Part shown: positions 10,466 through 32,055 of the stretch, piece by piece | How the letters are laid out: each line of letters opens with the position of its first letter | Numbering within the stretch: position 1 is the stretch's first letter | Source: Tenggerimyces flavus | GTDB lineage: Bacteria > Actinomycetota > Actinomycetes > Propionibacteriales > Actinopolymorphaceae | Direction of reading: 5' to 3' | DNA: 64,000 nucleotides | Assembly (NCBI RefSeq): GCF_016907715.1 | Contig: NZ_JAFBCM010000001.1 | Coordinates: 7,789,420 to 7,853,419, forward strand | Translations under genes and position numbers: made by a program | Notes under the pieces: generated by a model | What the model was told of the DNA's origin: nothing | The model's database searches: none | Seen by the model: the letters and a program-made list of their open reading frames with translations, nothing else

Positions 10466-10545
10466 ACCGGGACGGCGAAGTGAGGCGTGCCGATAGTTGC
10501 CCAGGGTCATGTCGTACTCTCGTGCGCATGAGTTTGCAGTCGCCC

Positions 10546-10550: not shown

Positions 10551-10556
10551 CGCTCT

Positions 10557-13539: not shown

Positions 13540-13570
13540 GGCGTCCCGTCCGACCACCCGCCCGTGGTCG

Positions 13571-13652: not shown

Positions 13653-13682
13653 GGGTGCTCGACCGGCGGATACGGTCGGCGG

Positions 13683-14774: not shown

Positions 14775-14824
14775 CCCTGACCGACCCGTCGCCGGGCCAA
14801 TTGTGACGGAGTAGGGACGCAGGG

Positions 14825-16243
14825 TCAGGCTGCCGCGCAGACAGAGTTGAGGTCGCCGACCGGTTCGGGAGACTTTGTCCCGTTTGATTTTATCGATTTG
14901 GACGGCTGGGGTGCCTTCACCGGCTTCTTCGCCGCCGTCGGGGTGGGAACGACGCCGTTCGACGCATCGATCGCGCTTCGGACCTTCGACTGGATCAGCG
15001 TGACGTTCGGGTGCGACGCGCGGATCAGCGGCGGGACGAACTGCACCGAGGTGATCTTCTGCTTCTTCACCCGCATCGAGAGGTCGACGAACTTCCCCAG
15101 CTCCGAGCTCGGGATGTCGGTCGACATCACCTGCTTGCCGGCCTTCGCGATCGCCTGGAACTTCAGCAGCACGGTGCCGGGATCCAGCTGGTCCAGCATC
15201 GCCGCCATCACGCAGCGCTGCCTGGCCATCCGGTCGTAGTCGCTCGAGCCCGTCCGGGACCGGGCGTACCAGAGCGAGCGGTACCCGTCGAGCTTCTGCT
15301 TGCCGGCCTTGATCGTGCCGCTGCGTTCGCTGCCGATGCCGCCGATCGGGACGTTCTTCTTGACGTCGATCGTCAGCCCGCCCACCGCGTCGACGAGCTG
15401 CCGGAAGCCGAACAGGTCGATGAGCACGTAATAGTTGACCGGCAACCCGGTGAGTCCGCTGATCGCGTCCTTGGTGGCGACGATCCCGGGGTCCGGTACG
15501 CCGGGGAACAGCTCCTTGTGGTCGTTCGCCCAGGTGTAGACGGCGTTGAGCAGGCAGCTGTCGCAGTGGAACCCGTTCGGGAACTGCTCGTGCATCACGG
15601 TGCCGCGCGGGAACGGGACGCGCTGCAGGTTGCGCGGGAAGCTGAACATCGCGGTGTGGCCGGTGTCCTCGTCGACCGAGACCAGCGTGATGCTGTCGGG
15701 ACGGAGGCCCTCGCGGTCGGGGCCGGCGTCGCCGCCGAGCAGCAGGATGTTGTAGCGGCCGGCGTTCGGGTCGGACTTCTTGCCCGCGCCGAAGATTCCG
15801 TCGATCGACTCGCGGGCGACCGCGACGTACTGCGACCCGAGCAGCAGGGCGCCGACGCAGACGAGCGACATGGTGGCGGTGGCGATCGTCGCGGTGAGGC
15901 GCTGCTTGCGTTCGAGGCCGAGCGGCCGGCCGAGGCGCCAGGCGTCGATGAACAGCAGCAGCCAGCCGACGGCGAAGATCAGCAGAACGATGCGGAGCAC
16001 GGCGAGCACGGCGGAGTTGGTGAACAGGCCGACGAGCAGGTTGGGGGCGAGCCAGGCGAGCAGTGCGGCGAGGGCTCCGACGCCGAGGACGCCGAGCAGG
16101 ACACGTACGGCGAACCGTCCGACCGCCTTGTTGCCGGCGACGAGCTGAGCCGTCCCGGGGGCGAACAACGTCATCAACAGCAGCGTGATGCTCCGGCGGA
16201 ATCGCACCCGCGACGAGTGCCCCTGGAGGTCCTCCTCCTGCAT
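14825..16243 (-). CDS. LytR-CpsA-Psr (LCP) family glycopolymer ligase with a four-helix N-terminus
   Basis: A 472-residue protein. The first 160 residues carry about four membrane helices (SITLLLMTLFAPG, VRVLLGVLGVGALAALLAWLA, AVLRIVLLIFAVGWLLLFIDAW, TATMSLVCVGALLLG) instead of the usual single anchor. The extracellular LCP domain follows: YNILLLGGDAG, RPDSITLVSV, FSFPRNLQRVPFP, GLPVNYYVLIDLFGFRQLVDAVGG, and YRSLWYARSRTGSSDYDRMARQRCV. Such enzymes attach glycopolymers such as teichoic acids or arabinogalactan to peptidoglycan. It is divergent from a second LCP gene across 122 bp. Confidence 0.92.
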   Translation of the reverse strand: MQEEDLQGHSSRVRFRRSITLLLMTLFAPGTAQLVAGNKAVGRFAVRVLLGVLGVGALAALLAWLAPNLLVGLFTNSAVLAVLRIVLLIFAVGWLLLFIDAWRLGRPLGLERKQRLTATIATATMSLVCVGALLLGSQYVAVARESIDGIFGAGKKSDPNAGRYNILLLGGDAGPDREGLRPDSITLVSVDEDTGHTAMFSFPRNLQRVPFPRGTVMHEQFPNGFHCDSCLLNAVYTWANDHKELFPGVPDPGIVATKDAISGLTGLPVNYYVLIDLFGFRQLVDAVGGLTIDVKKNVPIGGIGSERSGTIKAGKQKLDGYRSLWYARSRTGSSDYDRMARQRCVMAAMLDQLDPGTVLLKFQAIAKAGKQVMSTDIPSSELGKFVDLSMRVKKQKITSVQFVPPLIRASHPNVTLIQSKVRSAIDASNGVVPTPTAAKKPVKAPQPSKSIKSNGTKSPEPVGDLNSVCAAA

Positions 16244-16352
16244 GCCCCTGCCCCGTTCGATCTACTCTCCGTGATGTTCGTGACTGTCAGTATTTGCACA
16301 GCGGATCGGAACTTCGGGGGTGCCACGCCGAGTGGTGGGATCTCAATCCGGG

Positions 16353-16358
16353 TAGCGT
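16353..16358 (+). promoter_or_regulatory. -10 box of the second LCP gene (leaderless)
   Basis: TAGCGT with 7 nt to ATG 16366. It supports that start over an in-frame codon 72 nt upstream. Confidence 0.55.
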
Positions 16359-16365
16359 GACCGGC

Positions 16366-17724
16366 ATGCCCAACGGTGGCCCGCGCGACGAGGACCCCCA
16401 ATACGACTGGCTCTACGCACGCGACAACGCGGCGGGCGACCAAGCCGAGCCGGCGGGTGACGACGCGACCCAGATGATGCCGCGGCGCCGCGATCGGCGG
16501 TCCGGGCACAGGCGGAGCGGGCTGTACGCCGACGAGTCCGACTCGACGCGGCCGCTGTCGCAGGGTTACGACCAGGGCTACGACCAAGAGGGCGGGTACG
16601 GGCAGCAGCCGCCGCCCGCTCCGTACCGGACCGATCCGAACGATCCGCAGTACCCGCCGCCGCTCCCGCCGCGACAGCCCAGCCCGCAGCCCCAGGGGCC
16701 CGGCGGCCCGCCGCAGGGTCCGCGGGGTCCACAGCCCCCTCAGCCGCCGCGCCGGGCTCCGTCCACGCGGCGCCGGCGCCGGTTGCCGATCATCCGGATC
16801 ATCCTGCTGTTGATCTTCGCGTACCTGGTGTTCCTCGTCGCGATGCCGATCGTGGCGTGGGGCCGGGTGGACAAGGTGCCGTTCGAGTCGGCCGACGGCG
16901 GGCCACCGGACACGCCCGGCACGACATACCTGCTGGTGGGCTCGGACAGCCGCGAGGGCCTGACCCGCGAGGAGCAGAACGAGCTCGGCACCGGGCGCGC
17001 GACCGGGCAGCGGACCGACACGATCATGCTGCTGCACGTTCCGACGTTCGGGCCGCCGGTGCTCGTCTCGATCCCCCGCGACCTGCGCGTGAACATCCCC
17101 GGTCGGGACGGGCGGAGCCGGATCAACGCGGCCTACGCGTTCGGCGGCGCCGAGCTGCTGACGAAGACTGTCGAAGCGACGACGAACCTGCGGGTGGACG
17201 AGTACGTCGAGATCGGGTTCGGCGGCTTCGCGTCGATCGTCAACTCCCTTGGTGGCATCGAGATGTGCTTGCCGAAGGCGATGAAGGACAAGGACGCGCA
17301 CATCGACCTGCCGGCCGGCTGCCAGACGTTGGACGGCAAGAACGCGCTGGGGTACGTCCGTGCCCGCAAGTCCGACCCGCGCGGCGACCTTGGGCGGGTC
17401 GAGCGGCAGCGACAGTTCCTCGCGGCGGTGCTGAAGGAGGCCGCGAGCCCGGCGACGTTCGTCAACCCGATCCGGTACGCGACCCTCAACACCGCCGGCG
17501 GCGACGCACTGACGGTCGGCGACTCGACCGGGCTGTTCGACCTGGCCAAGTTCGCCCTCGCGATGCGAGCGATCTCCGGCGAGGGCGGCGTGACGTTGAC
17601 CGTGCCGGTGACCGACGGCAGCGCGGAGCGGCTGGACGAGGACAAAGCCGAGCTGCTCTTCGACGCCCTCCGTTCCGGCGGCACGATCCCGCGCGACCTG
17701 CTGCCTTCGCCCTTGCCGTCCTAG
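16366..17724 (+). CDS. LytR-CpsA-Psr (LCP) family protein
   Basis: A 452-residue protein with a cytoplasmic Pro/Gln/Tyr-rich, disordered N-terminus (repeated QGYDQGYDQ then PPPLPPRQPSPQPQGPGG), a single membrane anchor (IIRIILLLIFAYLVFLVAMPIVAW) and an LCP domain (TYLLVGSDSREG, RTDTIMLLHVP, VSIPRDLRVNIPG, RINAAYAFGGAELLTKTVE, LGYVRARKSDPRGDLGRVERQR). The acidic and Arg residues of the LCP active site are present. It should transfer undecaprenyl-linked polymers to peptidoglycan. The second of two divergent LCP genes, it has the classical one-helix architecture, so the pair may act on different polymers. Confidence 0.93.
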   Translation: MPNGGPRDEDPQYDWLYARDNAAGDQAEPAGDDATQMMPRRRDRRSGHRRSGLYADESDSTRPLSQGYDQGYDQEGGYGQQPPPAPYRTDPNDPQYPPPLPPRQPSPQPQGPGGPPQGPRGPQPPQPPRRAPSTRRRRRLPIIRIILLLIFAYLVFLVAMPIVAWGRVDKVPFESADGGPPDTPGTTYLLVGSDSREGLTREEQNELGTGRATGQRTDTIMLLHVPTFGPPVLVSIPRDLRVNIPGRDGRSRINAAYAFGGAELLTKTVEATTNLRVDEYVEIGFGGFASIVNSLGGIEMCLPKAMKDKDAHIDLPAGCQTLDGKNALGYVRARKSDPRGDLGRVERQRQFLAAVLKEAASPATFVNPIRYATLNTAGGDALTVGDSTGLFDLAKFALAMRAISGEGGVTLTVPVTDGSAERLDEDKAELLFDALRSGGTIPRDLLPSPLPS

Positions 17725-17729
17725 CCTCG

Positions 17730-17811
17730 CCTTACCCGGCCAGTGGCCCCTCTACCTGGCGTCCACCCCACGTAAAGCGGCCAATGATCATGTAAACATG
17801 ATCATTGGCCC
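17730..17811 (+). repeat. ATGATCATG palindromic element, copy 2
   Basis: Same order as copy 1 (CCTTAC, CCAGTGGCCCC, ACCTGGCGTCCACCCCACG, palindrome 17779-17810 with 15-bp arms around AA). One base differs in the shared stem (GCGGCCA instead of GGGGCCA). It begins 6 nt after the LCP stop and lies between convergent genes. Confidence 0.85.
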
Positions 17812-17862
17812 CAGGGCGGGCGGGCCGGACCGGGCGAACCACCGCCGGACGAAAGGTCGAGG

Positions 17863-18786
17863 CTAGCGGGCGGGCCGTTGGTTGCCGGGGAAGAGGCTCG
17901 GGTCGATCAGCGGGCCGAGGTGGGCGAGCTTGTCGGGGTTCAACACGTTCTGGAAACCGACGATCTGACCGTCGGCGATCTGCAGGGCGAGGACGGCGGC
18001 CAGGTTGCCGTCGGCGTCGACGATGCGGGCGCCGGGGTGGCCGTTGACGAGCGTGGGCTCGATCCTGCCGGACAGGCTCTTCGCCGTACGGAAGATGCCC
18101 AGCACGAACCGCGCCACCCTGGTCCGGCCGACCGCCGGGGTCGCGAGCGCGGGTGCCTTGCCGCCGCCGTCGCCGACGAACGCGACGTCCTCGGCGAGCA
18201 TCCGTTCCAGGCCAGCGATGTCGCCTGACTCCGCCGCCGCGAAGAACTGCCGCGCCAGTTCGTCCCGCCGCGCAGGCGAGGCCTCGAAGCGAGACTCCCC
18301 CGACGCGAGCCGGCGCTGGGCGCGGACGAAGATCTGCCGGCAGTTCGCCTCGGTCTTCTCCACGATGGCGGCGATCCGGTCGTAGTCGTACCCGAAGACC
18401 TCACGCAGCAGGAACACCGCGCGCTCGACCGGCGTCAGGCTCTCCAGCAGGACGAGGAACGCGAGCGACACCGTGTCCGCCGTCTCGGCGTGCGCGGCAG
18501 GGTCGCCCATCGCGGACGTGTCGAGCAGCGGCTCGGGAAGCCAGGCGCCGACGTACTGCTCGCGCCGCACCCGCGCCGAGCGCAGGTGGTCGATCGCGAG
18601 CCGGGTCGTGACCGTCGTGGCGTACGCCTCGGGCGACTCCACCTCGTGGGGCTGCGACCGAACCAGGCGCAGGAACGCCTCCTGCACGATGTCCTCCGCC
18701 TCCGCGACGCTGCCGAGCATCCGGTACGCGATCGAGAACATCAGCGGCCGCAGCTCGTCGTGCAGGTCCGCCGCGAGATTGGTCAC
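17863..18786 (-). CDS. sigJ: ECF41-group RNA polymerase sigma factor (SigJ-like)
   Basis: A 307-residue sigma factor: region 2 (LRPLMFSIAYRMLGSVAEAEDIVQEAFLRL), the ECF41 linker motif WLPEPL, region 4 (LTPVERAVFLLREVFGYDYDRIAAIVEKTEANCRQIFVRAQRRL), then a SnoaL-like domain of about 110 residues ending in NPDKLAHLG. ECF41 factors carry this extra domain in place of a separate anti-sigma factor and typically control a neighbouring oxidoreductase/epimerase/decarboxylase gene. The divergent epimerase has a textbook ECF41 promoter, so it is the likely target. Translation starts at GTG. Confidence 0.93.
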   Translation of the reverse strand: MTNLAADLHDELRPLMFSIAYRMLGSVAEAEDIVQEAFLRLVRSQPHEVESPEAYATTVTTRLAIDHLRSARVRREQYVGAWLPEPLLDTSAMGDPAAHAETADTVSLAFLVLLESLTPVERAVFLLREVFGYDYDRIAAIVEKTEANCRQIFVRAQRRLASGESRFEASPARRDELARQFFAAAESGDIAGLERMLAEDVAFVGDGGGKAPALATPAVGRTRVARFVLGIFRTAKSLSGRIEPTLVNGHPGARIVDADGNLAAVLALQIADGQIVGFQNVLNPDKLAHLGPLIDPSLFPGNQRPAR

Positions 18787-18808
18787 GGCTTCGATCCAAC
18801 CATGTCGG

Positions 18809-18835
18809 TGTCACAGGACGGAGGAGCCGTACGTC
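18809..18835 (+). promoter_or_regulatory. ECF41-type promoter of the epimerase gene
   Basis: TGTCACA (18809-18815) and CGTC (18832-18835) are separated by exactly 16 nt. This matches the -35/-10 pattern known for ECF41 sigma factors. It points right, about 37 nt before the epimerase ATG, and lies directly upstream of the divergent ECF41 gene. Confidence 0.85.
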
Positions 18836-18872
18836 GGAGGGGTCATCAAGTGAGGAAAATGGAGGCACACCG

Positions 18873-19811
18873 ATGCGTATCTTCCTCGCCGGAGCGACCG
18901 GAGTCGTCGGCCGTTACCTGGCACCGGCCCTGATCGAACGGGGCCACGAGGTCGTCGGCACCACTCGTTCGTCCGCCAAGGTCGAGAGCCTGCGCGCTTC
19001 CGGGGTCGAGCCCGTGGTGGTCGACGGCCTGGACGCGGACGGCGTTCTCCGCGCGGTCAGCAAGTCCAAGCCCGACGTCGTCGTCCACCAGCTGACCGGC
19101 CTCGGGACGGGCGCGGACTTCAAGCACTTCGACCGGTCGTTCGCGGAGACGAACAAGCTGCGGACGCGCGGGACCGACAACCTGCTCGCTGCCGCTCGGG
19201 CGAGTGGAGCGGGGCGGTTCGTGGCGCAGAGCTTCACCAGCTGGCCGTTCCCGCGTACGGGCGGGCCGGCCAAGACCGAGGCCGATCCGCTCGACCCGTC
19301 GCCGATTGCCGCGTCCCGGGAGTCGTACGCCGCGATCGTGCACGTGGAGGAGGTGGTGGCGGGCGCGTCCGACCTGGCGGGCGTCGCGTTGCGGTACGGC
19401 GGCTTCTACGGCCCGGGCACGAGCCTCGGCCGCGACGGCGAGATCACCGAGATGGTCCGGTCGCGCAAGCTGCCCCTGGTCGGCTCCGGCGAGGGCGTGT
19501 GGTCGTTCATCCATATCGCCGACGTCGCCTCGGCCACCGTCTGCGCGATCGAGGGCAGCGCGACCGGGATCTTCCACATCGTCGACGACGAGCCGGCGCC
19601 GGTCCGAGTGTGGCTGCCGTACCTCGCCTCAGCACTGGGCGCCAAGCCACCGCTGAAGGTGCCCGCCTTCGTCGCCAAGCTGCTGATCGGCGAGATGGGC
19701 GTCGCGATGATGACCCAGATCCGCGGCGCGTCGAACGCGAAGGCCAAGCGGGAGCTGGGCTGGCAGCTGACCTACCCGAGCTGGCGCGAAGGCTTCCGCA
19801 CCGGCCTCTGA
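18873..19811 (+). CDS. NAD(P)-dependent epimerase/dehydratase (ECF41 target)
   Basis: A 312-residue extended short-chain dehydrogenase-like protein with GATGVVGRY (residues 7-15) as the dinucleotide motif and an atypical active-site region (SYAAIVHVEEVV). C-terminal HIVDDEPAPVRVWLPYLASALGAKPPLKVPAF resembles nucleoside-diphosphate-sugar epimerases of the WcaG group. It has a good ribosome site (GGAGG, 18861-18865). Its divergence from an ECF41 sigma gene and a matching promoter mark it as the sigma factor's regulon partner. The substrate is unknown for this class; proposed roles involve oxidative or electrophile stress. Confidence 0.9.
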   Translation: MRIFLAGATGVVGRYLAPALIERGHEVVGTTRSSAKVESLRASGVEPVVVDGLDADGVLRAVSKSKPDVVVHQLTGLGTGADFKHFDRSFAETNKLRTRGTDNLLAAARASGAGRFVAQSFTSWPFPRTGGPAKTEADPLDPSPIAASRESYAAIVHVEEVVAGASDLAGVALRYGGFYGPGTSLGRDGEITEMVRSRKLPLVGSGEGVWSFIHIADVASATVCAIEGSATGIFHIVDDEPAPVRVWLPYLASALGAKPPLKVPAFVAKLLIGEMGVAMMTQIRGASNAKAKRELGWQLTYPSWREGFRTGL

Positions 19812-23262: not shown

Positions 23263-23583
23263 CTAGTCGTCGCCAGGGTGGTTGACGAGGTACGCAGCGG
23301 CCGAGGGGGCGTCGTCGTGGGCTTCGAGCGTGCCCTCGTACACGAAGACCCGCACGTTGGTGAGGCCGTCCGCCGGATAGTCCTCCGGGTCGTCGCCGTA
23401 CACCTGCATCCGCACGCCACCGTCGACGTCGTCCGGATGGTCCATCACCCAGACCTCGAGGATCGCCCGCGCCACGTCGTCGGCGTCCCGTTCCAGGTCC
23501 GAACGCGACTCCCGCCGCCCCGAGCCCTCCCAGCTGCCGTCGTAGTCGCTCAGCTCGACCTCGTACGTGTAGTACCTCGGCAT
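23263..23583 (-). CDS. Small hypothetical protein
   Basis: A 106-residue acidic protein starting PRYYTYEVELSDYDGSWEGSGRRESRSDLERDADDVARAILEVWV and ending ALEAHDDAPSAAAYLVNHPGDD-like. The body looks like a compact alpha/beta fold with no membrane segment or signal. I do not recognise a family. ATG 23583 was preferred, with AGGGGG just before it; a GTG 27 nt upstream is possible. It follows copy 3 of the palindromic element and precedes (on its strand) nothing closely linked, since the next minus-strand gene ends 65 nt upstream. Confidence 0.65.
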   Translation of the reverse strand: MPRYYTYEVELSDYDGSWEGSGRRESRSDLERDADDVARAILEVWVMDHPDDVDGGVRMQVYGDDPEDYPADGLTNVRVFVYEGTLEAHDDAPSAAAYLVNHPGDD

Positions 23584-23647
23584 TGCCCCCTGAATCCCTC
23601 CACTCCGCACAACTCCCGCCGCGGAAACTACCGCAGCCAGGGCAATC

Positions 23648-24289
23648 TCAGGAAGAGTCGCCCAGATCCAGCTCGCCGGACGCGTGCCGGCGCTTGTCGA
23701 GGTTCTCCAGGTAGATCGTGAAGTCCTTGATCCCCTGCGTGTCCGCCCGATAGATCTGCTCCGCGGTGTCCGTCACGTACCGCTCCTGCAGGGACAGCTG
23801 GTACAGCAGCTCATCCCCAGGCGAACGCTCCCCCGACCGCGGCGTGTACCAACGCGGCAGGGAGAGGAACGCCTGCAGGCTCTCCGGCAGGTTGCGCCGG
23901 ATCGTCAACGACAGCACGTGCAACACCTCCGGGTCCGACCCCGCGTTCGGGTGCCCCAGGACGTCGGACAGCTTCGCGGAGATCCGCCGGAACGTGTCGA
24001 CCGCACCCGCGGGCAGCCGCGAGGACGACCGGTCCACGAACGTCCCCAGCGACGCGAGATCCGTGCGCAGCGGACCCACGTCCTCCGCCGTCCCCGACAG
24101 CACCAGCTTCGGCTTCTCCGGCGGGGCCAACAGCGCGCCCGCCGCGTACAGAGCGGCCACCACCAGCGGCCAGTACGGTCCCGCGATCCCCGTGAACGTC
24201 AGCCCCAGCCCCGCCAGGCCCGCCGCCGAGCCCACCAGGTTCTTGGTCGACCCGAGATAGCGCAGGAACCGGTTCTCACTGGTAGCCAC
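23648..24289 (-). CDS. Small membrane protein, last gene of the TelA operon
   Basis: A 213-residue protein with two adjacent membrane helices near the N-terminus (NLVGSAAGLAGLGLTFTGIAGPYWPLVVAALYAAGALLAPP, about residues 18-58) and a soluble helical cytoplasmic domain (VDTFRRISAKLSDVL, VLSLTIRRNLPESLQAFLSLP, QEIYRADT-like C-terminus). I chose GTG 24289, which overlaps the stop of the von Willebrand lipoprotein gene by 14 nt and has GGGAGA upstream. The C-terminal helical part resembles uncharacterised proteins found with TelA. I cannot name a family. Confidence 0.75.
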   Translation of the reverse strand: MATSENRFLRYLGSTKNLVGSAAGLAGLGLTFTGIAGPYWPLVVAALYAAGALLAPPEKPKLVLSGTAEDVGPLRTDLASLGTFVDRSSSRLPAGAVDTFRRISAKLSDVLGHPNAGSDPEVLHVLSLTIRRNLPESLQAFLSLPRWYTPRSGERSPGDELLYQLSLQERYVTDTAEQIYRADTQGIKDFTIYLENLDKRRHASGELDLGDSS

Positions 24290-25925
24290 GGATCTCCCGG
24301 AACGCGGCCTCCAGCGAACCCTCCCGGGCATCGAAAGCCCGCCCACCGGTCCGAGACGCGAGCTCCTTCATCTCGTCAGTATTGCCCTCGCCGAACAGCA
24401 CGGTGAAGATCGGCACGTTCTTCAACGCCGGCGGCAGCAACGCATGCCGCGTCCAGAACTGCGAGCTGTCCGCGCCGTGGTTGCTCTCGCCGTCCGTCAT
24501 GACAACGACCGACGTCGCGAAGTCACCCGCCGGCGCCTTGGCCAGCTCGTCGAACGCCGCCAGCACGCTGTCGAAGACGGCCGTGTCACCGCCCGGCTCC
24601 AACGCCTCCGCGGCGGACTTGATCTGCCCCAGCACCTCTTCCGGCTTCCTCTCCGGAACGACGAACGCCTGCGGCGAGTGCGGACCCGAGTCGAACGGCA
24701 ACAGCGTGATCTCCTCGCGGCTGTGGAACCGCTGGAACCGCCCCGCGATCGTGTCCGACGCACCGGTCAACGTGACCAGCGCGGAGCGCAGCGACTCGAT
24801 CCGGTCGCCGTCCATCGAGCCGGACACGTCCAGCACGTAGACCGTACGAGCCGGCCGCCGCAGCTTGTCGAAGTAGGTGTCGATCAGCCCGTTGACCACG
24901 TCGACCTTCGCCGGGAACGGCAGCTCGACGAGCGTCGACGCACCGAACTCGGCCGTCGGCTTCACCTGCGGGATCGCCGGCCGCCGGTGCGTCTGCGCCA
25001 TGATCTCGCGCTGGACGTCCGGAGTCCGCAGGTAGTCGGCCAGCTTGCGGTAGCCGTCGGCCACCTCGTCCGAAGCCGTGCTCAGCAACGTGAGCGGGTA
25101 GTCCGCGGTCACGACGCCGTCGGTCGGGTAGATCAACGTCAACGGCTCCGGCACCTTCTTGGCCGCGTTGAGCGTCAGCAGCACCGACTCGTAGTTGATC
25201 ACGCCGTCGACCTTCACCCCGGGCTTTCCACCGGACGCCCGGGCGGCGAACTCGTCCGCCAACCAGCCGGACGAACCGGCGGTGAGCTTCTGCGCGGAGA
25301 AGAACTTCTGCAGGCCGGGGCCGACTTTGTCGACGTCGCCCTGCTCCAGCGCCGCGCCCGTCCCCGACAGCGCCGCCGCGACGCCGACGAGAGCGGAGAA
25401 GCCGGAGTTCGACGCGGCCGGATTCGTCATGCCGTACGTGAACTTCTGCTCCCCGGCCGCCTTGGCGATGTCGGACCAGGTGACCTTCGACCCCGGTCCC
25501 CAGCCAAGCTGAGAAGCCTTCGACGACGCCATCCCCAGCACGACCGGCGAGGTCATGATCTTCGTCTCGGTCTTCGTCTTGCCGGCCGCCTCGGGATGCA
25601 GCGAGAGGTAGCGGTTCGACGGGAACCACACCGCGTCGAACTTGTCCTTGGTCTGGCCGTCCAGAACGCGTTGCACACCGTCCAGCGTGCCGACGAACTC
25701 GAAGTGCACGGCGACGCCGGTCTTCTCCTTCGCCTGCTCGAGGATCGGCTGCAGGTCGGACAGCTCGCTGCCCGCGAGGATGCGCAGCTCGCCGGCCTTG
25801 CCCGGCCCCTCCGGTACGTCGCCGCTCCTCGTGTCGCCGCTCCCGCCGGTCTGACAGCCGGCGAGGACCATGGCCGCGCCGAGCAGCCCGAGAACGAGCG
25901 CGCGCGGCACCCCCCGAACGTTCAT
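24276..25925 (-). CDS. Lipoprotein with solute-binding domain and von Willebrand factor A domain
   Basis: A 549-residue exported lipoprotein: signal helix ALVLGLLGAAMVLAGC with lipobox Cys24, then a type 2 periplasmic-binding fold (ELRILAGSELSDLQPILEQAKEKTG to about residue 345), then a von Willebrand A domain with an intact MIDAS (D366-V-S-G-S370, and VVMTDGESNHGAD). It would be displayed on the outer face of the membrane and could bind both a small ligand and, through Mg2+, a protein partner. No ABC permease or ATPase is nearby. ATG 25925 is 4 nt after the TelA stop; an upstream in-frame start is less likely because the signal peptide would be buried. Confidence 0.88.
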   Translation of the reverse strand: MNVRGVPRALVLGLLGAAMVLAGCQTGGSGDTRSGDVPEGPGKAGELRILAGSELSDLQPILEQAKEKTGVAVHFEFVGTLDGVQRVLDGQTKDKFDAVWFPSNRYLSLHPEAAGKTKTETKIMTSPVVLGMASSKASQLGWGPGSKVTWSDIAKAAGEQKFTYGMTNPAASNSGFSALVGVAAALSGTGAALEQGDVDKVGPGLQKFFSAQKLTAGSSGWLADEFAARASGGKPGVKVDGVINYESVLLTLNAAKKVPEPLTLIYPTDGVVTADYPLTLLSTASDEVADGYRKLADYLRTPDVQREIMAQTHRRPAIPQVKPTAEFGASTLVELPFPAKVDVVNGLIDTYFDKLRRPARTVYVLDVSGSMDGDRIESLRSALVTLTGASDTIAGRFQRFHSREEITLLPFDSGPHSPQAFVVPERKPEEVLGQIKSAAEALEPGGDTAVFDSVLAAFDELAKAPAGDFATSVVVMTDGESNHGADSSQFWTRHALLPPALKNVPIFTVLFGEGNTDEMKELASRTGGRAFDAREGSLEAAFREIRGYQ

Positions 25926-25929
25926 GGCG

Positions 25930-27120
25930 TCATCCCTCGAGTTGATTGCGTTGCTGGGAACGCTCGAGGTAGCTGCTCGCGTGCCCGAGCTCGGTGCGCA
26001 GTGCGTCAACCGTGACTTGCATGTTCGTGACGGCCTGGGCCTTGAACGTGTCGATCTTGTCGATCGTCGTGTAGATCTGCTCGAACGACTTCCGCAGCGT
26101 CTCCGCGCCGACAGCCGGGTCGGCCGCGATCTTCTGGATCTCGTCGGACTGGCTGGCGAGCATCTCCGCGTTCGCGCGGATCAGGTCCTCGGTCGTGCCC
26201 TTGAGCGCGTTGACCTGTTCGATGACCATCTTCTGGTTCGACAGCGCCTGCGCGATCGTCACCGCGATCCGTAGCGCGGACACGGTCGTGGTCGCGGCTC
26301 GTTCGACGCCCTTGATCAGCTCGTCGTTGTTGCGCCGGATCGTGTCGAGGGCGAGGTAGCCCTGGACACAGACGGCCAACTGGGTAAGCAGATCCTGGTG
26401 CTTCTGCCGAACGGGAAAGAGCACGTCCACCTTGAGGTTCTGGGCCTGTTCGGGCGCCTCGATCTCGACGTCGGCGATCCGCGCCTCGACAGCGCGGTCG
26501 AGCGCCTCGGCCAGGACCGCGTACTCCTGCAGCTTGCCCATCGTGTTCCACAGCTGGGTGCGCTCGCTCTGGATCGTGGCGTTGTCGCGGCGCAGCTCGT
26601 CCTGCCCGTTGCGGAGCGAGACGACGATCTTGTTGATGTTGACGTTCGCCGACTGGTACTTGTTCATGAAGTCGCGGATCGCGTTGCCGAACGGGAGCTT
26701 CGACAGCAGCTTTCGCCCGGTGAGCTTGCCGATGTCCTTCGGGTCGAGGTCCTCGACCGTACGGCGCAGCTCCAGCAGCCCCTTGCCCACGCGCTGCTGG
26801 GCGTCCGCGCCGTCGCCCTTCGCGCCGGCGAGGGCGGCGACCGAACGGGTCAGCATCCGGTTGGCGACCTGCGACGACGAGCGGACCTCGCCGTCCCCGA
26901 GGGAGGCGATGTCCCCGATCTTCGCGGTGAACTCCGGCGAGCGCGGGTCGAGCGAGCTGACGTTGGCGACGTACGACGCGGCCCGCTGCTCCAGCTGGGC
27001 GCGGGTGTCCTCGCTGATCGGGACCAGCGTCTTCGCACGTTCGGGCTGGACGGCGGTGACCGGCTCGGGCGGTGTGAGTACGAGCTCGGAGGCTCCAGCC
27101 GATGGGTCGAGAGCTGTCAT
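25930..27120 (-). CDS. telA: Toxic anion resistance protein TelA/KlaA family
   Basis: A 396-residue, almost entirely helical cytosolic protein matching the TelA family: DPKDIGKLTGRKLLSKLPFGNAIRDFMNKYQSANVNINKIVVSLRNGQDELRRDN, then DVLFPVRQKHQDLLTQLAVCVQGYLALDTIRRNNDELIKGVERAATTTVSALRIAVTIAQAL and a terminal coiled coil. Family members are linked to tellurite resistance and to Ter-type envelope or phage stress systems, but their molecular action is unknown. The gene starts inside the stop of the upstream binding protein (ATGA, 27117-27120). Confidence 0.92.
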   Translation of the reverse strand: MTALDPSAGASELVLTPPEPVTAVQPERAKTLVPISEDTRAQLEQRAASYVANVSSLDPRSPEFTAKIGDIASLGDGEVRSSSQVANRMLTRSVAALAGAKGDGADAQQRVGKGLLELRRTVEDLDPKDIGKLTGRKLLSKLPFGNAIRDFMNKYQSANVNINKIVVSLRNGQDELRRDNATIQSERTQLWNTMGKLQEYAVLAEALDRAVEARIADVEIEAPEQAQNLKVDVLFPVRQKHQDLLTQLAVCVQGYLALDTIRRNNDELIKGVERAATTTVSALRIAVTIAQALSNQKMVIEQVNALKGTTEDLIRANAEMLASQSDEIQKIAADPAVGAETLRKSFEQIYTTIDKIDTFKAQAVTNMQVTVDALRTELGHASSYLERSQQRNQLEG

Positions 27121-28262
27121 AGCGGTCCTTCGTCCTTCCCCACAGCCGCGGCACCAGAGGCCGCGTACTTCTTCTCGATCGAGGTCAACAGCCGTTCGAG
27201 CGTGTCGTAGCTCGGCGGGTCGATCACGTCCACGACGCTCGTACGGACGGCCACCTTGTGCTGCTTCACGACGTCGGCGAACTGCGCCGGCTTGGTCGTG
27301 CGGAAGCCGAACGTCGCGGCGAGCGACTGCAGCTCGGGATCGTTCACGAGCAGCTCGCCGACCTTGGCCCCGTTGTCGTTCAACGGCACCACGGTGTGCT
27401 TGGACAGCACCGTGGGCGAGGGATACATCAGCACCATGTCCGGCGTGATCGTGCCGTCGTTGCGGACGACCCGGTCGACGAACTGTGCCTCGTAGATGAA
27501 CAGCAGTGGCGTGTTCCCCATGCCCAGCGAGAGATAGTCGTCGAACGGTTGCTCACTGGTCTTCGCCGTGTAGCCCTGCGCGAGGAACAGCTGCGAGACC
27601 TGCGAGAGCACCTTCTGCTCCTCCGCGGCGCTCTGCACGATCGCGTTGTCGTTGACGACGTTGCTCGCGATCGCGAGGTACATCGCCGCCGAGTTGGAGT
27701 TTCTCGGGTCTGTCGTACGGATCAGGATGTTCTTGCGGACCGGGTACGTCGTGTTGCCCGGCAGCTGGTTCCAGCGCGTGCCCTTGGCCGCGAGCTCGAG
27801 GTACTTGGCCATGTCGAACGTCCAGGTGCCGTCCGCTGCCTTGACCGCGACACCCTGCTTGGCGAGCAGGTCGACGATCGGTTGGAACGAGGCGATCACC
27901 ATCGGCGAGTAGAACGGCGCGAAGCTCTGCGTCGTCTTCCTCTCCCGTTGGATCTTCTCCGCCGCCGGCGCGCTCGAGGGGAACGCGAAGTCGTACTTCT
28001 CCAGGTCGACCGACGTCGCGATCTGCCGCGAGCCCGCGGTGTCGATCTCGACCGACAGCCCGTGCTTGGCGAACACGTCACGTACGCGTTGGTCCTTGAA
28101 GAACGCCGACTTCTCCGAGCCGATGACGCCCTTGACCGCGGTCAGGTTGGTGTTGCCGCCGGGCTGTTCACCGGGACCCCCACCCCGACTTCCGAACCAG
28201 ATCGCGAACCCGACCCCAATGATCAATACGGCCGCAAGGCCGATCGACAGCACACGCCTCAC
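27117..28262 (-). CDS. Membrane-anchored solute-binding-like protein, first gene of the TelA operon
   Basis: A 381-residue protein with an N-terminal signal anchor (RRVLSIGLAAVLIIGVGFAIWF) and an extracytoplasmic type 2 periplasmic-binding-like body (VKGVIGSEKSAFFKDQRVRDVFAKHGLSVEI, YDFAFPSSAPAAEKIQ, MVLMYPSPTVLSKHTVVPLN). No Cys lipobox follows the helix, so it stays anchored. GTG 28262 is chosen for the GGTGGAG site 5 nt upstream and for its typical signal start; GTG 28319, in frame, would add 19 residues. It is coupled to TelA by ATGA. The lack of any transporter subunit argues for sensing rather than uptake. Confidence 0.83.
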   Translation of the reverse strand: MRRVLSIGLAAVLIIGVGFAIWFGSRGGGPGEQPGGNTNLTAVKGVIGSEKSAFFKDQRVRDVFAKHGLSVEIDTAGSRQIATSVDLEKYDFAFPSSAPAAEKIQRERKTTQSFAPFYSPMVIASFQPIVDLLAKQGVAVKAADGTWTFDMAKYLELAAKGTRWNQLPGNTTYPVRKNILIRTTDPRNSNSAAMYLAIASNVVNDNAIVQSAAEEQKVLSQVSQLFLAQGYTAKTSEQPFDDYLSLGMGNTPLLFIYEAQFVDRVVRNDGTITPDMVLMYPSPTVLSKHTVVPLNDNGAKVGELLVNDPELQSLAATFGFRTTKPAQFADVVKQHKVAVRTSVVDVIDPPSYDTLERLLTSIEKKYAASGAAAVGKDEGPL

Positions 28263-28358: not shown

Positions 28359-31300
28359 TTAACGCTGGGTGAACAACGTGCGACGTGTGTCTTGGACTCC
28401 GTTGAAGGCGGCCCATAGCCTCGCGTATCGCCCGCCGCGGTCGAGCAGCTCCTGGTGCGTGCCGGCCTCCGCGATCCGCCCGGCGGCCATCACCAGAATG
28501 CGGTCGCAGGTCATCGCGGTGGAGAGCCGGTGGGCGATGATCAGCGTCGTGCGCGGCTCGGTGAGGTGGCGCATCGCGGCGGTGACCGCGGCCTCGGTGG
28601 CGAGGTCGAGGGTCGACATGGCTTCGTCGAGCAGCAGTACGTCGGGATCGACGAGCTGCGCCCGGGCCAGGGCGAGCAGCTGGCGTTGGCCGGCGGAGAT
28701 GCCCTTGCCGCCCTCGCCGAGCTCGTGGTGGTAGTCGTACCGCAGGGTGGCGATCATGTCGTGCGCGCCGACGGCTCTGGCCGCGTCCTCGACCTGCGTG
28801 TCGGTGGCGTGCGGGCGGCCGTACGCGATCGCGTCGCGGACCGTGCCGGCGAACAGGTACGGCTCCTGCGGGACGATGCCGAGCCTGCTGCGGTAGCTGG
28901 CCAGATCGAGCTGGCGCAGGTCCGTTCCGCCGATGGTGATCGCGCCTCGCGTCGGGTCGTAGAACCTCGCCATCAGCTTGAGCAGGGTCGACTTGCCGGC
29001 GCCGGTTTCGCCAACGACAGCGACGGTTTGGCCTCGGGTGATCTCGAGGTCGATGCTGCTGACGGCCTCCCTTGCCGCACCCTGGTAGGTGAAGTGGACG
29101 TCGTCGAACGTGATCGCGTCGGTGACGGTGTCGACTGTTTGCGGGTGGGCGGTCTGCGGGGTCGACGTTCTCGTGCCGAGCAGCTCGCGCAACCTCTCCA
29201 GGCCTACTTGGGCGCGTTGGTAGCTGTCGATCACGAGCGTCATCAGCTGGACCGGGCCGAACAGCAGGTTGATGTAGAGGACGAACGCGATCAGGCCGCC
29301 CGTCGTGAGGTCGCCGCCCGCGACCAGCGTCGCGCCGACCGCGAGGACGACGACGAGGGCGAGGTCGCCGACGAGCTCGGTGAACGAGGTGAAGACCGCG
29401 AGGTAGCGCTCGGATCGCAAGCGGGCTTGGAGATGCTTATCGACGAGCTGCCTGAATGTTCTTCTGCTGGCGTCCTGATGGCCGTACGCCTGGGCGACGC
29501 GGAGGCCGGCGATGTTCTCCTGCAGGTCGGTGTTGAGCTCGCTGAGGCGGTCGCGGGCTTCGTCGTACGCGCGCCTCGACCAACGTCGGTAGGCGAAGAC
29601 GGAGGCGACGAACAGCGGCAGCAGCACGACGAGGGCGAGCGTGAGCCGGGGCTGCAGGATCAGCATGACGACGAGCACGCCGGTGAACTCGGCGACCGCG
29701 GTGACGAGAGTGCCGAAGCTGCGTTGGATGAAACTGGTGATCGCGGAGATGTCGCTGGTCATGCGGGTGAGCACGCCGCCGCTGTGCTCGCGTTCGTAGT
29801 AGTCGAGGCCGAGCCGTTGCAGGTGGGCGAACGCCTTGACCTCCAACCAGAGCCGGGCCTGTTCGCCGGTGCGTCCGACGACGCGTTCGTGGAAGACCCG
29901 GATCGCCCAGGTGAGCAGGACGAGCACCAGTGCGGCGACGGAGGCCTGGACGAGGACCCCTGGCGCGTCCTTGCCGACACCGTTGTCGATGGCGGATCTG
30001 GTGAGCAGCGGGAGAGCGAGGTTGGCAATCGACTCCAGGCCCATGGCGGCGACGACAAGCGCGAGGCTGGCCCACAGCGGCCCGAGCAACTTGCGCGCGC
30101 TGAGCTTCGGCTCGGGCTCCCTAGCCCGCCGTACGTCGGCGTCCACATCTCCACAGCCCGACCCCACTTCCCTTACCGGACTGGGGTTTTGGGGCTCCTT
30201 GCCACGTTGCAGAACCCCAGTCGGGTAAGGGAAGTCGGCGGGGTTGTGGAGGAGCGTGCGGTAGTGGGGGCAGCGTGCTAGGAGCTCGGCGTGGGTGCCG
30301 ACGTCGACGACCCTGCCCCGGTCGAGAACGGCGATGCGGTCGGCGAGTCTGAGAGAGCTGCGCCGGTGGGCGATGAGCAGCGTGGTGCGGTTTCGCGTTG
30401 CCTGCCTGAGGGTTGCGAGGATGTCGGCCTCGACGCCGGCGTCGACCGCGGAGGTGGCGTCGTCCAGAACGAGGATCGGCGGCGCGGTGAGCATCGCCCG
30501 CGCGAGCGCGACGCGTTGGCGTTGGCCGCCGGAGAGCGTGAGTCCTCGTTCGCCGACGACGGTGTCGTAGCCGTTCGGGAGGTCGTCGATGAAGGGGTCT
30601 GCCTCGGCCTGGCGGGCTGCTTCGGCCACCCGTTCGTCAGAGCGCCCGAACGCGATGTTGGAGCGCAGCGTGTCGGAGAACAGGAAGCTGTCCTCGAAGA
30701 CCATCGCGACGCGTTCGCGTACGGACTCGACCGTGAGGTCGGCGATGTCGGTGCCGTTCAGGCTGATCGTCCCTTGCTGGGGATCGTAGAAACGCGTGAG
30801 CAGCAAGGCGATCGTGGACTTGCCGGACCCCGGAGCGCCGACGAGCGCGAGCGTCTCGCCGGCTTCGACGTGGAGCGTGACGTCGTGGAGGACGGGATAG
30901 TCGTGGTCGTACCCGAACGTGACGTGCTCGAGGTCGATGCTGAGCGGTCCGTCCGGGGCTTTCTGGGCGTCTGGCTTGTCGGTGACGGTCGGCTTCGCGT
31001 CGATGACCTCGAGCAGCCTCAGCAGGCCGGCCTTCGCCTCGACGAGAGCGGGAAGCTGGGTGACCAGCCAGCGGACCGGGGCGACGGTAGCGGCGAGGTA
31101 GGTGGCGAACGCGAGGAACGTGCCGAGCGTGATCCTGCCGTCGAGGGCGAGCCAGCCGCCGAACGCGAGCACGGCGACCTGGGCGATGGCCGGGATCGCG
31201 TTGAGCGCGGGGTAGAAGTTGCTTGCGGCGTTGGCTCTTCTGACGCCGAGGTCGTACAGGTGGCCGGCCTGTTTCTCGAACCGTTCCTGCTCGCGGTGCT

Positions 31301-31937
31301 CCTGGCCGAAGCCCTTGATGACGCGTACGCCGCTCACCGCGGACTCGACGACGCCGGCGAGGACGCCGGTCTGCTGGGAGTAGTCGCGGTGCAGCGGGGT
31401 GAGGAACGCGCTCCCCCGCCTCGCTGAGACGAACAGAAGGGGCGCGGCGACGAGCGCGACCAGAGTGAGCAGCGGGGAGAGCGTGAGCATGATGACCAAC
31501 GACAGCGCGAACATCACCGCGTTCGAGGCGAGCTGCGGGACGTTGCGCAGAGCGGTCTCGACCGAGCCGACGTCGGTGACGACCCGGCCGACGACCTGCC
31601 CTGCCTTGAGCCGGTCGTACTGCGCTCCGTCCAGCCGCTGCAGCGCGTCGAAGACGTCGGTCCTCAGCCGCGCGCCGACGCCGTAGCCCAGCGTGCCGGA
31701 CACGTACCGGCGCACGGTCCCGGCGACGAACCTGAGGAGTGCCGCGGCGGCCAGCAGCCCCAGCCACGGTCCGACGTTCGCCCGATCGTCGACGATCTGC
31801 TTGACCACCAACGGAATCCCGGCGAGCGCCGCGCTCCCGACGATCGACGTGACGAACCCGAGCGCGACCGCCGCCCGATGTTCGCGGCAGTAGCCCACCA
31901 TGCGACGGAACGGAGATCGGTCGCGAAAAGTGGCCAT
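28359..31937 (-). CDS. Double-module ABC exporter (TMD-NBD-TMD-NBD)
   Basis: A 1192-residue fusion of two type IV (MsbA/LmrA-like) half-exporters. Module 1: six-helix domain to about residue 320, Walker A GAPGSGKST, signature LSGGQRQRVALARAML, Walker B ILVLDDATSAVD (Asp in place of the catalytic Glu: degenerate site). Module 2: six helices, Walker A GETGAGKST, signature ISAGQRQLLALARAQL (atypical), Walker B VLLLDEAMSTLD with Glu. The sites are therefore asymmetric, as in heterodimeric exporters fused into one chain. ATG 31937 is used because the first module begins right after it. The roughly 60-residue linker between modules is encoded by a long inverted repeat (30149-30251). The substrate is unknown; multidrug or lipid efflux is likely. 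Confidence 0.92.
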   Translation of the reverse strand: MATFRDRSPFRRMVGYCREHRAAVALGFVTSIVGSAALAGIPLVVKQIVDDRANVGPWLGLLAAAALLRFVAGTVRRYVSGTLGYGVGARLRTDVFDALQRLDGAQYDRLKAGQVVGRVVTDVGSVETALRNVPQLASNAVMFALSLVIMLTLSPLLTLVALVAAPLLFVSARRGSAFLTPLHRDYSQQTGVLAGVVESAVSGVRVIKGFGQEHREQERFEKQAGHLYDLGVRRANAASNFYPALNAIPAIAQVAVLAFGGWLALDGRITLGTFLAFATYLAATVAPVRWLVTQLPALVEAKAGLLRLLEVIDAKPTVTDKPDAQKAPDGPLSIDLEHVTFGYDHDYPVLHDVTLHVEAGETLALVGAPGSGKSTIALLLTRFYDPQQGTISLNGTDIADLTVESVRERVAMVFEDSFLFSDTLRSNIAFGRSDERVAEAARQAEADPFIDDLPNGYDTVVGERGLTLSGGQRQRVALARAMLTAPPILVLDDATSAVDAGVEADILATLRQATRNRTTLLIAHRRSSLRLADRIAVLDRGRVVDVGTHAELLARCPHYRTLLHNPADFPYPTGVLQRGKEPQNPSPVREVGSGCGDVDADVRRAREPEPKLSARKLLGPLWASLALVVAAMGLESIANLALPLLTRSAIDNGVGKDAPGVLVQASVAALVLVLLTWAIRVFHERVVGRTGEQARLWLEVKAFAHLQRLGLDYYEREHSGGVLTRMTSDISAITSFIQRSFGTLVTAVAEFTGVLVVMLILQPRLTLALVVLLPLFVASVFAYRRWSRRAYDEARDRLSELNTDLQENIAGLRVAQAYGHQDASRRTFRQLVDKHLQARLRSERYLAVFTSFTELVGDLALVVVLAVGATLVAGGDLTTGGLIAFVLYINLLFGPVQLMTLVIDSYQRAQVGLERLRELLGTRTSTPQTAHPQTVDTVTDAITFDDVHFTYQGAAREAVSSIDLEITRGQTVAVVGETGAGKSTLLKLMARFYDPTRGAITIGGTDLRQLDLASYRSRLGIVPQEPYLFAGTVRDAIAYGRPHATDTQVEDAARAVGAHDMIATLRYDYHHELGEGGKGISAGQRQLLALARAQLVDPDVLLLDEAMSTLDLATEAAVTAAMRHLTEPRTTLIIAHRLSTAMTCDRILVMAAGRIAEAGTHQELLDRGGRYARLWAAFNGVQDTRRTLFTQR
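30149..30251. repeat. Imperfect inverted repeat inside the double ABC exporter gene
   Basis: The inner arms of 23 bp (30166-30188 and 30213-30235) match with one mismatch around a 24-nt loop; they begin ACTTCCCTTACC and end in GGTAAGGGAAGT. Outer arms CTCCACA (30149-30155) and TGTGGAG (30245-30251) extend the dyad to about 103 bp. It is in frame and codes for the linker between the two modules (PADFPYPTGVLQ...NPSPVREVGSGCG). Confidence 0.8.
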
Positions 31938-32055
31938 CCGACTACTCTTAGCGATAGCTGGTCGGTGGGCGCAACCCGTTGGCCGTGCCCGGCCACCAGC
32001 CGACTCGCTGCCGGAGGCGGTGGTCTGCGCCCCCAACGATCAGCTCTACACGGCG

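Follow-up and report, generated by a model that had tools for sequence, protein, structure and literature searches.

A TelA cassette of Tenggerimyces flavus with paired outer binding proteins as a candidate trans-envelope stress module

The described systems closest to the locus reported here are operons of Firmicutes in which TelA is paired with an XpaC-type protein. In B. subtilis, xpaC-yaaN is listed as core sigma-W in the available part of PMC3498285, and in Listeria garvicin KS mildly raised the pair lmo1966-lmo1967, encoding XpaC- and TelA-like proteins (log2 about 0.6), and the sensitivity of an lmo1967 mutant was increased 4-fold to nisin and 2-fold to tellurite (excerpts of PMC12791056 and PMC11765107, citing Collins 2010). 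The mechanism of the Listeria TelA protein is given as not known in the excerpt of PMC12791056. In Lactococcus, tellurite sensitivity accompanies lowered orf53-telABC products in the accessible text of PMC13109727. From these partial sources, Listeria TelA is tied to tolerance of both envelope-active antimicrobials and tellurite. The proposed pairing of TelA with an XpaC-type protein is common to xpaC-yaaN, lmo1966-lmo1967 and the cassette described below, whereas the two Firmicutes operons, as far as the excerpts describe them, have no extracytoplasmic binding proteins and no von Willebrand A lipoprotein, and the last gene product of our cassette (D) has no Pfam match as XpaC.

The Ter systems (TerD/TerC/TerY) use von Willebrand A domains and have the "tellurium resistance" label in common with TelA, which is a different family from the Ter proteins. 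A first-pass annotation of the locus had assigned TelA and von Willebrand A proteins to Ter-type networks; this link is one of name, as TerD (PF02342) had no match in the whole genome, on which ground a Ter stress system was rejected, and the closest kinship is with the XpaC-TelA pair. Literature searches found no publication joining TelA with the outer binding parts described here, and since a 2012 comparative-genomics paper on Ter systems may already cover this TelA neighbourhood, no priority is claimed. TelA and XpaC are named neither in the main text of PMC11237479 and PMC7159879 nor in PMC12839542.

The 64,000-nucleotide stretch of the Tenggerimyces flavus genome that was analysed (the window) contains, by ORF calls, four adjoining minus-strand genes at 23648..28262 in the order A-TelA-C-D (Table 1). 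The ORF coordinates reproduce the coupling that had been read from the letters at the outset, with a 4-nt ATGA overlap at the A/TelA junction, a 4-nt gap at the TelA/C junction, and an overlap at the C/D junction. Gene A was called from a GTG at 28262; starting at an alternative GTG in frame at 28319 would lengthen the protein by 19 aa. No RNA element or tRNA was found in the window (Rfam 0, ARAGORN 0), and a promoter and terminator consensus scan gave nothing exceeding shuffles.

Table 1. Positions of the cassette genes, domains and motifs in the window
Feature	Position	Strand	Description
gene A	27117..28262	-	381 aa; N-terminal membrane anchor and predicted extracytoplasmic type 2 binding-protein fold (ORF, AlphaFold2)
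TelA	25930..27120	-	396 aa; PF05816
gene C	24276..25925	-	549 aa; predicted lipoprotein, SBP_bac_11 and von Willebrand A (Pfam, lipobox)
SBP_bac_11 domain of C	25005..25754	-	Pfam; paralogous to gene A
von Willebrand A domain of C	24318..24842	-	PF00092
MIDAS motif D366-V-S-G-S370 of C	24816..24830	-	residue conservation, 63 C proteins
gene D	23648..24289	-	213 aa; two predicted N-terminal membrane helices, then cytosolic helical domain; probable XpaC-superfamily member
C/D overlap, 14 nt	24276..24289	-	codes both the C end (..RGYQ, stop) and the D beginning (start-ATS..)

Gene A has one N-terminal hydrophobic helix by hydropathy, and its AlphaFold2 model (pLDDT 87.6, pTM 0.83) most closely matched, among solved structures, the sulfate-binding proteins 1sbp (Z 23.8; 276 residues, 3.4 Å rmsd) and 6ddn (Z 23.1), with Z ≥ 8 for 981 of 1000 Foldseek-ranked chains. 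The model thus predicts the two-lobed alpha/beta type 2 periplasmic binding fold, in agreement with the initial description of A as a membrane-anchored type 2 binding-like protein. Sequence searches with A returned nothing from Pfam, NCBIfam or PADLOC and no solved structure, in each case at E ≤ 1. Homologues of A were present in 90 examined loci, the window counted, with G48, K51, D185, S189, Y257, E258, Q260 and H289 kept in all 90 and E50 in 89. Six stand-alone A proteins have a conserved N-terminal stretch ahead of the membrane helix, a receptor-like build. A profile-profile comparison of A with the C binding domain gave E 1.8e-21 at a probability of 99.4, indicating that the two are paralogues.

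Gene C scored 50.3 bits against SBP_bac_11 (cut-off 25) and 37.8 bits against VWA (cut-off 23.8), the lipobox Cys24 is aligned in 61 of 63 C proteins, and the lipobox pattern occurs in 47 of 55 cassette C proteins. The MIDAS residues D366, S368, S370, T448 and D478 are identical in 63/63, as are E54, S172, N173, Y245, E246 and S247. These matches bear out the first-pass annotation of C as a lipoprotein joining a type 2 binding domain to a von Willebrand A domain with the DVSGS motif at 366-370, and the DxSxS motif with its conserved T and D is of the MIDAS type, from which metal binding is predicted. The MIDAS conservation is what the alignment documents; a ligand of C and Mg2+-dependent contacts we infer. 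In the PDB, the C profile matched ModA and SubI at E 4e-5 to 3e-3, and the von Willebrand A part matched pilus subunits, inter-alpha-trypsin heavy chains and other receptor/matrix proteins, magnesium chelatase and channel subunits. Sbp, SubI and ModA have the modelled fold of A and a weak sequence kinship with C, whereas A and C differ from them in having no fixed importer partner, in being membrane-anchored or fused to a von Willebrand A domain and, for A, in its own conserved motifs (GSEK, TD-x3-SNS and YE-x-Q). The two-domain build of C is the same as that of proteins named "Substrate-binding and VWA domain-containing protein" in RefSeq, a name given to proteins of Variovorax and Streptomyces. 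At another place in the T. flavus genome (L148), two C-like genes stand in tandem with no A, TelA or D match beside them. The window-type C, tied to A, TelA and D, forms a lineage of its own.

The window TelA matched PF05816 at 288.5 bits (cut-off 30) over model positions 2-332 of 332, which places it in the TelA family by sequence, and it is the sole TelA match in this genome. No signal or membrane helix was found in it at the stricter hydropathy threshold and it is therefore read as cytosolic; 18 of 55 cassette TelA proteins bear one hydrophobic stretch. It had no solved structure by sequence at E ≤ 1, and among 14 pattern-matching stretches in IMG/VR none encoded a relative.

For D, hydrophobic stretches at 18-36 and 37-55, found only at the lenient hydropathy threshold, and the AlphaFold2 model (pLDDT 84.7; helices 15-32, 40-54, 71-87, 96-111, 120-142 and 157-203) agree with its earlier description as a two-helix membrane protein with a cytosolic helical domain. 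Foldseek and VIA-align returned generic helical bundles only (best E 0.37; Z 10.6 over 86 residues), which does not imply a new fold. The window D matched no Pfam family at E ≤ 10, falling short of the cut-off for the XpaC family (PF10112), and PF10112 was not among the families listed for 39 D orthologues (25 of 30 shown). The slot of D, however, holds PF10112 proteins in two lineages, at 39.7 bits in genome G245, over the cut-off of 29.8, and at 22.3 bits in G266, under it, and one D orthologue (L158, E 1.9e-38) reached 20.0 bits (E 7e-4), also under the cut-off, over residues 7-185 of 191. The D profile scored 36.0 against a profile of six slot/XpaC proteins (A10: three from the slot in the cassette and three encoded beside TelA) and, more weakly, 31.8 (probability 19.5%) against the three independent XpaC proteins alone, compared with 13.8 for the best of 40 column shuffles, 23.5 for the reversed profile and 20.9 for TelA. 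The PF10112 search missed its B. subtilis control, a genome expected to hold xpaC, so its reach is limited; all five PF10112 places that it found in 198 genomes were beside TelA or within the cassette. Taken together, D is probably a relative of XpaC. TelA and D sit in one gene run, an XpaC-TelA module if D counts as XpaC-like, and because of the two XpaC-family slot proteins the cassette may be read as the Firmicutes XpaC-TelA pair with two paralogous outside binding proteins added.

The first-pass annotation had staked its reading on conservation of the four-gene order in related genomes, and the order is kept across orders and into Betaproteobacteria. A-TelA-C-D was found in 49 of the 79 best homologous loci, which come from the best 80 of 306 relatives and therefore lean to Actinomycetota, in 55 of the 90 A-bearing loci, and also on Betaproteobacterial replicons. 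Such recurrence, together with a C/D overlap that measures exactly 14 nt in 44 of the 53 cassettes on the plus strand, goes beyond chance. The HMMs (A1-A4) were each built from 4-5 sequences, and counts over the 90 loci need matches spanning 50-60% of the model, so that the diverged D and TelA of L135-L137 were missed and were added from separate searches. In 198 genomes of the phylum, TelA lay within 3 kb of A in 7 of 8 A-bearing genomes; these seven are among 13 TelA places over the cut-off, and the remaining six comprise one with D (L138), three with a PF10112 protein alongside, and two (L139, L142) with no A, C, D or XpaC match nearby. No fifth partner stood at a fixed place across genera in the 45 largest neighbour clusters, which were built from crude gene calls. 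The four genes recur together in numerous soil actinobacteria, plus a few distant bacteria.

Other orders were A-C-(2-helix ORF)-TelA in L135, where the slot protein had no Pfam or HMM match and is called D by position and helices only, and C-XpaC-A-TelA in L136 and L137. C-(slot)-A-TelA was found in four genomes belonging to the same order; among G082, G138, G064 and G023, a D or XpaC match was found in two, by the XpaC profile in G023 (E 1.4e-6) and by the A3 profile only in G138 (E 4e-4), the last not repeated in another search. TelA-D with neither A nor C in the vicinity occurs in G285 (L138) and in two genomes of Kribbella (L155 and L157). Conversely, four genomes of unstated completeness carry A-C or A-C-D but gave no match to TelA (L057, L063, L073 and L088; the first two also with no D), and A-C(-D) occurs on a Deinococcus plasmid, where the plasmid alone was searched. 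A phage-like contig carries A-C-D with no TelA match in its record, and gene A had no match in the phage records searched. A second A-C pair in G274 (L145), with no TelA or D match, was left out of the 90 loci because its A match was split, and at L072 the search matched another, longer copy of A, about 6 kb from the cassette.

We propose, with about even confidence, that the cassette is a trans-envelope stress sensor and response module built on the XpaC-TelA pair. A and C would face outward, any transporter having been lost, and under stress a ligand or some component of the envelope would appear, around which their binding modules would pair. A contact made by the von Willebrand A domain and dependent on divalent cations would then lock the outer parts in place, and this change would reach TelA by way of the A and D helices. 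TelA in turn may reinforce or re-organise the membrane against pore-forming or cell-wall-acting agents, a step in line with the nisin phenotype of Listeria TelA. The ligand and the signalling we infer. The first-pass annotation had proposed a two-sided envelope device signalling to TelA; the two-sided topology holds, but TelA does not appear to be its obligatory read-out. D occurs with either half, as A-C-D without TelA and as TelA-D without A-C, and because A-C(-D) exists without TelA, signalling to TelA cannot be the sole function and TelA seems dispensable to the module.

It had also been stated that no ABC permease or ATPase is nearby. In fact, a tandem ABC exporter of 1225 aa, with two ABC_membrane and two ABC_tran domains, adjoins A directly upstream on the same strand, ending at 28359, 96 nt before the GTG at 28262 and 39 nt before that at 28319. 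Exporter-type ABC proteins do not use binding proteins. In the window this exporter separates A from a purE-like gene, but in Actinopolymorpha alba (L039) A-TelA-C-D follows a purK/purE-like pair (names by eye) with no exporter gene between, and the exporter was rejected as part of the module. In Lentzea loci, A is preceded at a distance of 1.1-5.8 kb by an exporter of ~567 aa (that of L055 was scanned), with an esterase gene between the two in L055. Of 54 other cassette loci, 24 have ABC-type genes of several kinds within their flanks, all of them 1.1 kb or more from A. The window cassette lacks the make-up of an ABC importer with its binding proteins.

Orphan binding proteins served by distant permeases do exist, and A and C could pass an oxyanion-like ligand to an ABC importer encoded elsewhere, with TelA and D as passengers. 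The sulfate-binding-protein-like fold of A and the ModA and SubI matches of C are consistent with this, as are an ABC ATPase ~1.6 kb past D in four Lentzea loci and importer genes directly upstream, on the same strand, in two diverged loci. These two importers differ in type, however, being ABC_tran, NMT1 and BPD_transp_1 with its own binding protein in G223 and branched-chain-amino-acid-type genes in G245. The prospect that ABC permeases pair with these binding proteins, which would have told against the first-pass reading, is thus realized only as adjacency in G223 and G245; no importer is fixed beside the cassette, and apart from these two exceptions A and C were rejected as importer subunits. 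The membrane anchor and the von Willebrand A domain do not belong to the build of an importer, TelA and D/XpaC are the partners with which A and C stay linked, and the stand-alone A proteins are built like receptors, all of which makes the importer explanation unlikely, though the two adjacent importers raise its odds slightly.

Detoxification of tellurite or another toxic oxyanion, with A and C capturing the anion outside and TelA protecting inside, is suggested by the family names, by the resemblance of the binding modules to oxyanion binders, and by the Lactococcus and Listeria tellurite phenotypes in the partial sources cited above. We doubt it, since in the Listeria excerpts the nisin effect exceeds that of tellurite, the genome lacks TerD, and the conserved Glu residues of A (E50, E258) and C (E54, E246) would, if they form the lining of the pocket, be ill suited to an anion. 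It is similarly improbable that the cassette serves adhesion or cell-wall surveillance, the C modules recognising either a polymer of the wall or the surface of a neighbour, while D and TelA do no more than organise a membrane complex. The invariant MIDAS, the receptor/matrix matches of the von Willebrand A domain and the persistence of A-C without TelA, even without D, would fit such a role, which leaves unexplained the tight tie to TelA and XpaC, the pair that in the Firmicutes operons of the excerpts lacks outer parts. An anti-phage defence module is least credible and very unlikely, although a Variovorax plasmid cassette lies ~2.4 kb from a Wadjet system and A-C-D on a phage-like contig is as expected of counter-defence or a stolen shield, since such a setting turned up just once in the annotated neighbourhoods and none of the four proteins matched a PADLOC family at E ≤ 1, on which ground a known anti-phage system was rejected.

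Returning to the trans-envelope stress module, a bolder version of it, which we hold only tentatively, is that transport-type binding proteins were turned into paired, adhesion-armed receptors gating a widespread membrane-protection machine, XpaC-TelA, that a D/XpaC hub docks either the outer pair or TelA, and that large phages have taken over the outer part and use it to control the envelope of the host or to shield it. TelA is commonly annotated as "tellurite resistance", and the cassette hints at what the TelA layer may listen to. It also gives partners to A and D, two families for which no model matched in the Pfam, NCBIfam and PADLOC libraries used, and it makes the role of the TelA-linked outer proteins accessible to simple deletions and pull-downs.

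The four minus-strand genes A, TelA, C and D are coupled as the first-pass annotation had described, with an ATGA overlap between A and TelA, a 4-nt gap between TelA and C, and a 14-nt overlap between C and D; the window covers positions 7,789,420-7,853,419 of an 8.52-Mb single-contig genome. TelA matched its Pfam family at 288.5 bits and C carries both an SBP_bac_11 domain (50.3 bits) and a von Willebrand A domain (37.8 bits); for A and D, searches of Pfam, NCBIfam and PADLOC gave nothing at E ≤ 1. The closest named relative of A, at 75% identity, is found in Actinopolymorpha alba. Directly downstream of D lies a 115-aa ORF with a weak PHROG match (E 0.049) and nothing in Pfam, NCBIfam or PADLOC. 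Elsewhere in the same genome (L148), two genes for C-like proteins with binding and von Willebrand A domains stand in tandem, and a profile search of that locus gave no adjoining match to A, TelA or D.

Coordinates of the cassette, its neighbours and related loci
Feature	Sequence	Coordinates	Strand	Remarks
A	window	27117-28262	-	membrane-anchored type 2 binding protein
TelA	window	25930-27120	-	PF05816
C	window	24276-25925	-	lipoprotein
D	window	23648-24289	-	two-helix membrane protein
C/D overlap	window	24276-24289	-	14 bases encode both the RGYQ C-terminus of C and the ATS N-terminus of D
115-aa ORF	window	23263-23610	-
Tandem fused ABC gene, 1225 aa	window	28359-32036	-	two ABC_membrane and two ABC_tran domains
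Importer with own NMT1-type binding protein	L135 (G223)	8410-11001	same as cassette	directly upstream of shuffled cassette
Branched-chain-amino-acid-type importer	L136 (G245)	8911-11499	same as cassette	directly upstream of shuffled cassette
Cassette with flanking systems	L033, Variovorax sp. SRS16 plasmid	1761-19467
Second A-C pair	L145 (G274)	5692-9345
C-like tandem pair	L148 (C1:5,030,000-5,044,000)	6323-10072
A, C and D	L158 (IMGVR_UViG_3300047323_000673)	4965-9329

The same four-gene order recurs in other genomes, at loci homologous to A. An alignment of A scanned against the genomes of 84,980 species found 306 relatives, the best 80 of which gave 79 loci; A-TelA-C-D was present in 49 of these, A-C-D in two (L073, L088), A-C in two (L057, L063), A-TelA at a contig end in one (L044) and A alone in 25. 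Adding the window itself, the plasmid loci and those taken from further genomes brought the A-bearing loci to 90, comprising 55 A-TelA-C-D, three A-C-D, two A-C, one A-TelA, 26 A alone and three shuffled (L135-L137). Pairwise distances among the four proteins correlate across the 55 cassettes at r 0.81-0.97, although common ancestry by itself raises values of this sort. Of 53 plus-strand cassettes, 44 keep a C/D overlap of exactly 14 nt. Twelve plasmid records contained a match to C by tblastn, with the complete order on those of Nonomuraea (L032), Variovorax (L033) and Sphaerotilus (L035) and A-C-D on that of Deinococcus (L034). On the Variovorax plasmid the cassette is flanked on one side by a flotillin/OB-fold pair and on the other by a Wadjet system, and C is present at equal identity in three Variovorax plasmids.

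A less biased sample, 198 genomes spread evenly across the phylum, contained TelA above cut-off in 11 genomes at 13 places, A in eight and D, by its own profile, in five. A and TelA were within 3 kb of each other in seven of the eight; in the eighth (G196) A stands by itself and TelA gave no match. The order was A-TelA-C-D in four genomes (G000, G274, G307, G328), A-C-X-TelA in G223, with X a 221-aa ORF having N-terminal hydrophobic helices by eye, and C-X-A-TelA in G245 and G266, with X matching PF10112, the XpaC family. At the six other TelA places, D follows in one (L138), a PF10112 protein adjoins in three (G158, G320, G342), and two (L139, L142) had no match to any cassette part nearby. 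Four more genomes of the window's taxonomic order (G082, G138, G064, G023) carry a diverged C-(slot)-A-TelA, with TelA at 85.6-94.4 bits and a D or XpaC profile match in the slot in two.

These reordered cassettes bear on the identity of D, which is probably a diverged XpaC. PF10112 occurs at five places in the 198 genomes, every one beside TelA or within a cassette, and the slot protein of G245 exceeds the Pfam cut-off (39.7 vs 29.8 bits). This PF10112 search was silent in its own B. subtilis control, so a genome without a match in it carries little weight. The profile of D scored 36.0 against six slot and XpaC proteins (E 2.7e-4, probability 42%) and 31.8 against the three XpaC proteins alone (probability 19.5%); among the controls, 40 column shuffles reached at most 13.8, the reversed family 23.5 and TelA 20.9. 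A D orthologue from L158 (E 1.9e-38) matched PF10112 over residues 7-185 of 191 at E 7e-4, below cut-off. Against this identification, a Pfam scan of the window's D drew nothing at E ≤ 10, and the listed families of its 39 relatives do not include PF10112. In PMC12791056, lmo1966 appears under the PF10112 name and is called XpaC-like.

Profile-profile comparison shows A to be paralogous to the binding domain of C (E 1.8e-21). The two have GSE, SNS and YE motifs in common, whose key positions vary little or not at all among 90 A proteins and 63 C proteins. The five MIDAS positions of C (D366, S368, S370, T448 and D478) are identical in 63 of 63. The model of A (pLDDT 87.6) matched sulfate-binding proteins best, with Z 23.8 to 1sbp (276 residues, 3.4 Å), 23.7 to 5um2 and 23.1 to 6ddn, followed by the thiamin-binding protein 2qry at 22.9, rows less than 1 apart being tied; searches with the C profile reached ModA and SubI, with E values from 4e-5 to 3e-3. 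Six long stand-alone A proteins from Nocardia, Kribbella and Nonomuraea (L107, L068, L105, L114, L101, L084) have a conserved stretch of ~70 residues ahead of the membrane helix, with a motif around VRDFVPILVER, suggesting a receptor-like build. In the two proteins scanned (L107 and L146), Pfam gave this stretch nothing better than E 0.25; we take it to resemble a small actinobacterial dimerisation domain with three helices.

The first-pass annotation was mistaken in finding no ABC permease or ATPase nearby: a tandem fused ABC gene adjoins the cassette directly upstream on the same strand, ending 96 nt from A's GTG start at 28262 and 39 nt from an upstream GTG. This gene is of exporter type, and it looks like a local neighbour because the A. 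alba cassette (L039) directly follows a purK/purE-like pair, with no exporter there. Among 54 other cassette loci, 24 have ABC-type genes of several kinds in their flanks, always at least 1.1 kb from A. The Lentzea gene that was scanned is of exporter type, and four Lentzea loci have a solitary ABC ATPase ~1.6 kb beyond D. The best lead for a transport role is the pair of importers upstream of the shuffled cassettes in G223 and G245, which we regard as neighbours and not partners because their types differ.

The cassette is itself modular. TelA-D occurs without A or C matches in the 12-kb neighbourhood at L138, L155 and L157, and XpaC-TelA occurs in G158, G320 and G342, genomes without A and without full-length C. 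Conversely, A-C-D is found without TelA at L034, L073, L088 and L158, the last with an opposite-strand ORF between A and C, and A-C without TelA or D at L057, L063 and L145; TelA had no match in the genomes of L057, L063, L073 and L088, whose completeness is not stated. D occurs with either half and is therefore the likely hub. The A-C pair of L145, the second in its genome, had no TelA or D matches at the locus; the next ORF encodes 257 aa and, judged by eye, begins with a hydrophobic N-terminal stretch. L158 is a 180.8-kb contig, 31% GC in the stretch analysed. TelA gave no match in this record, possibly a fragment. The contig is taken as viral from its IMG/VR classification and from the neighbouring families, which include LemA, TPM, RNase H and nicotinamide phosphoribosyltransferase, along with several PHROG families that have no assigned function.

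The sequences show the domain make-up of the four genes, their linkage, the paralogy of A and C and the conservation of the MIDAS, and the A-C(-D) loci without TelA argue against TelA as the only read-out. In the proposed mechanism, A would pair with C as a receptor on the outer face, with the von Willebrand A domain making a cation-dependent contact; a signal could cross via the membrane helices to D and, at loci that have it, to TelA, and TelA may protect the membrane. In the literature, B. subtilis xpaC-yaaN is listed as core sigma-W (PMC3498285), lmo1966-lmo1967 rises mildly with garvicin KS and an lmo1967 mutant shows 4-fold sensitivity to nisin and 2-fold to tellurite (PMC12791056; PMC11765107), and in Lactococcus tellurite sensitivity accompanies lowered orf53-telABC products (PMC13109727). 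Searches of openly available papers, the 2012 Ter survey excepted, yielded no publication uniting TelA with these outer parts. We rate the cassette as probably XpaC-TelA with a putative outer receptor half added.
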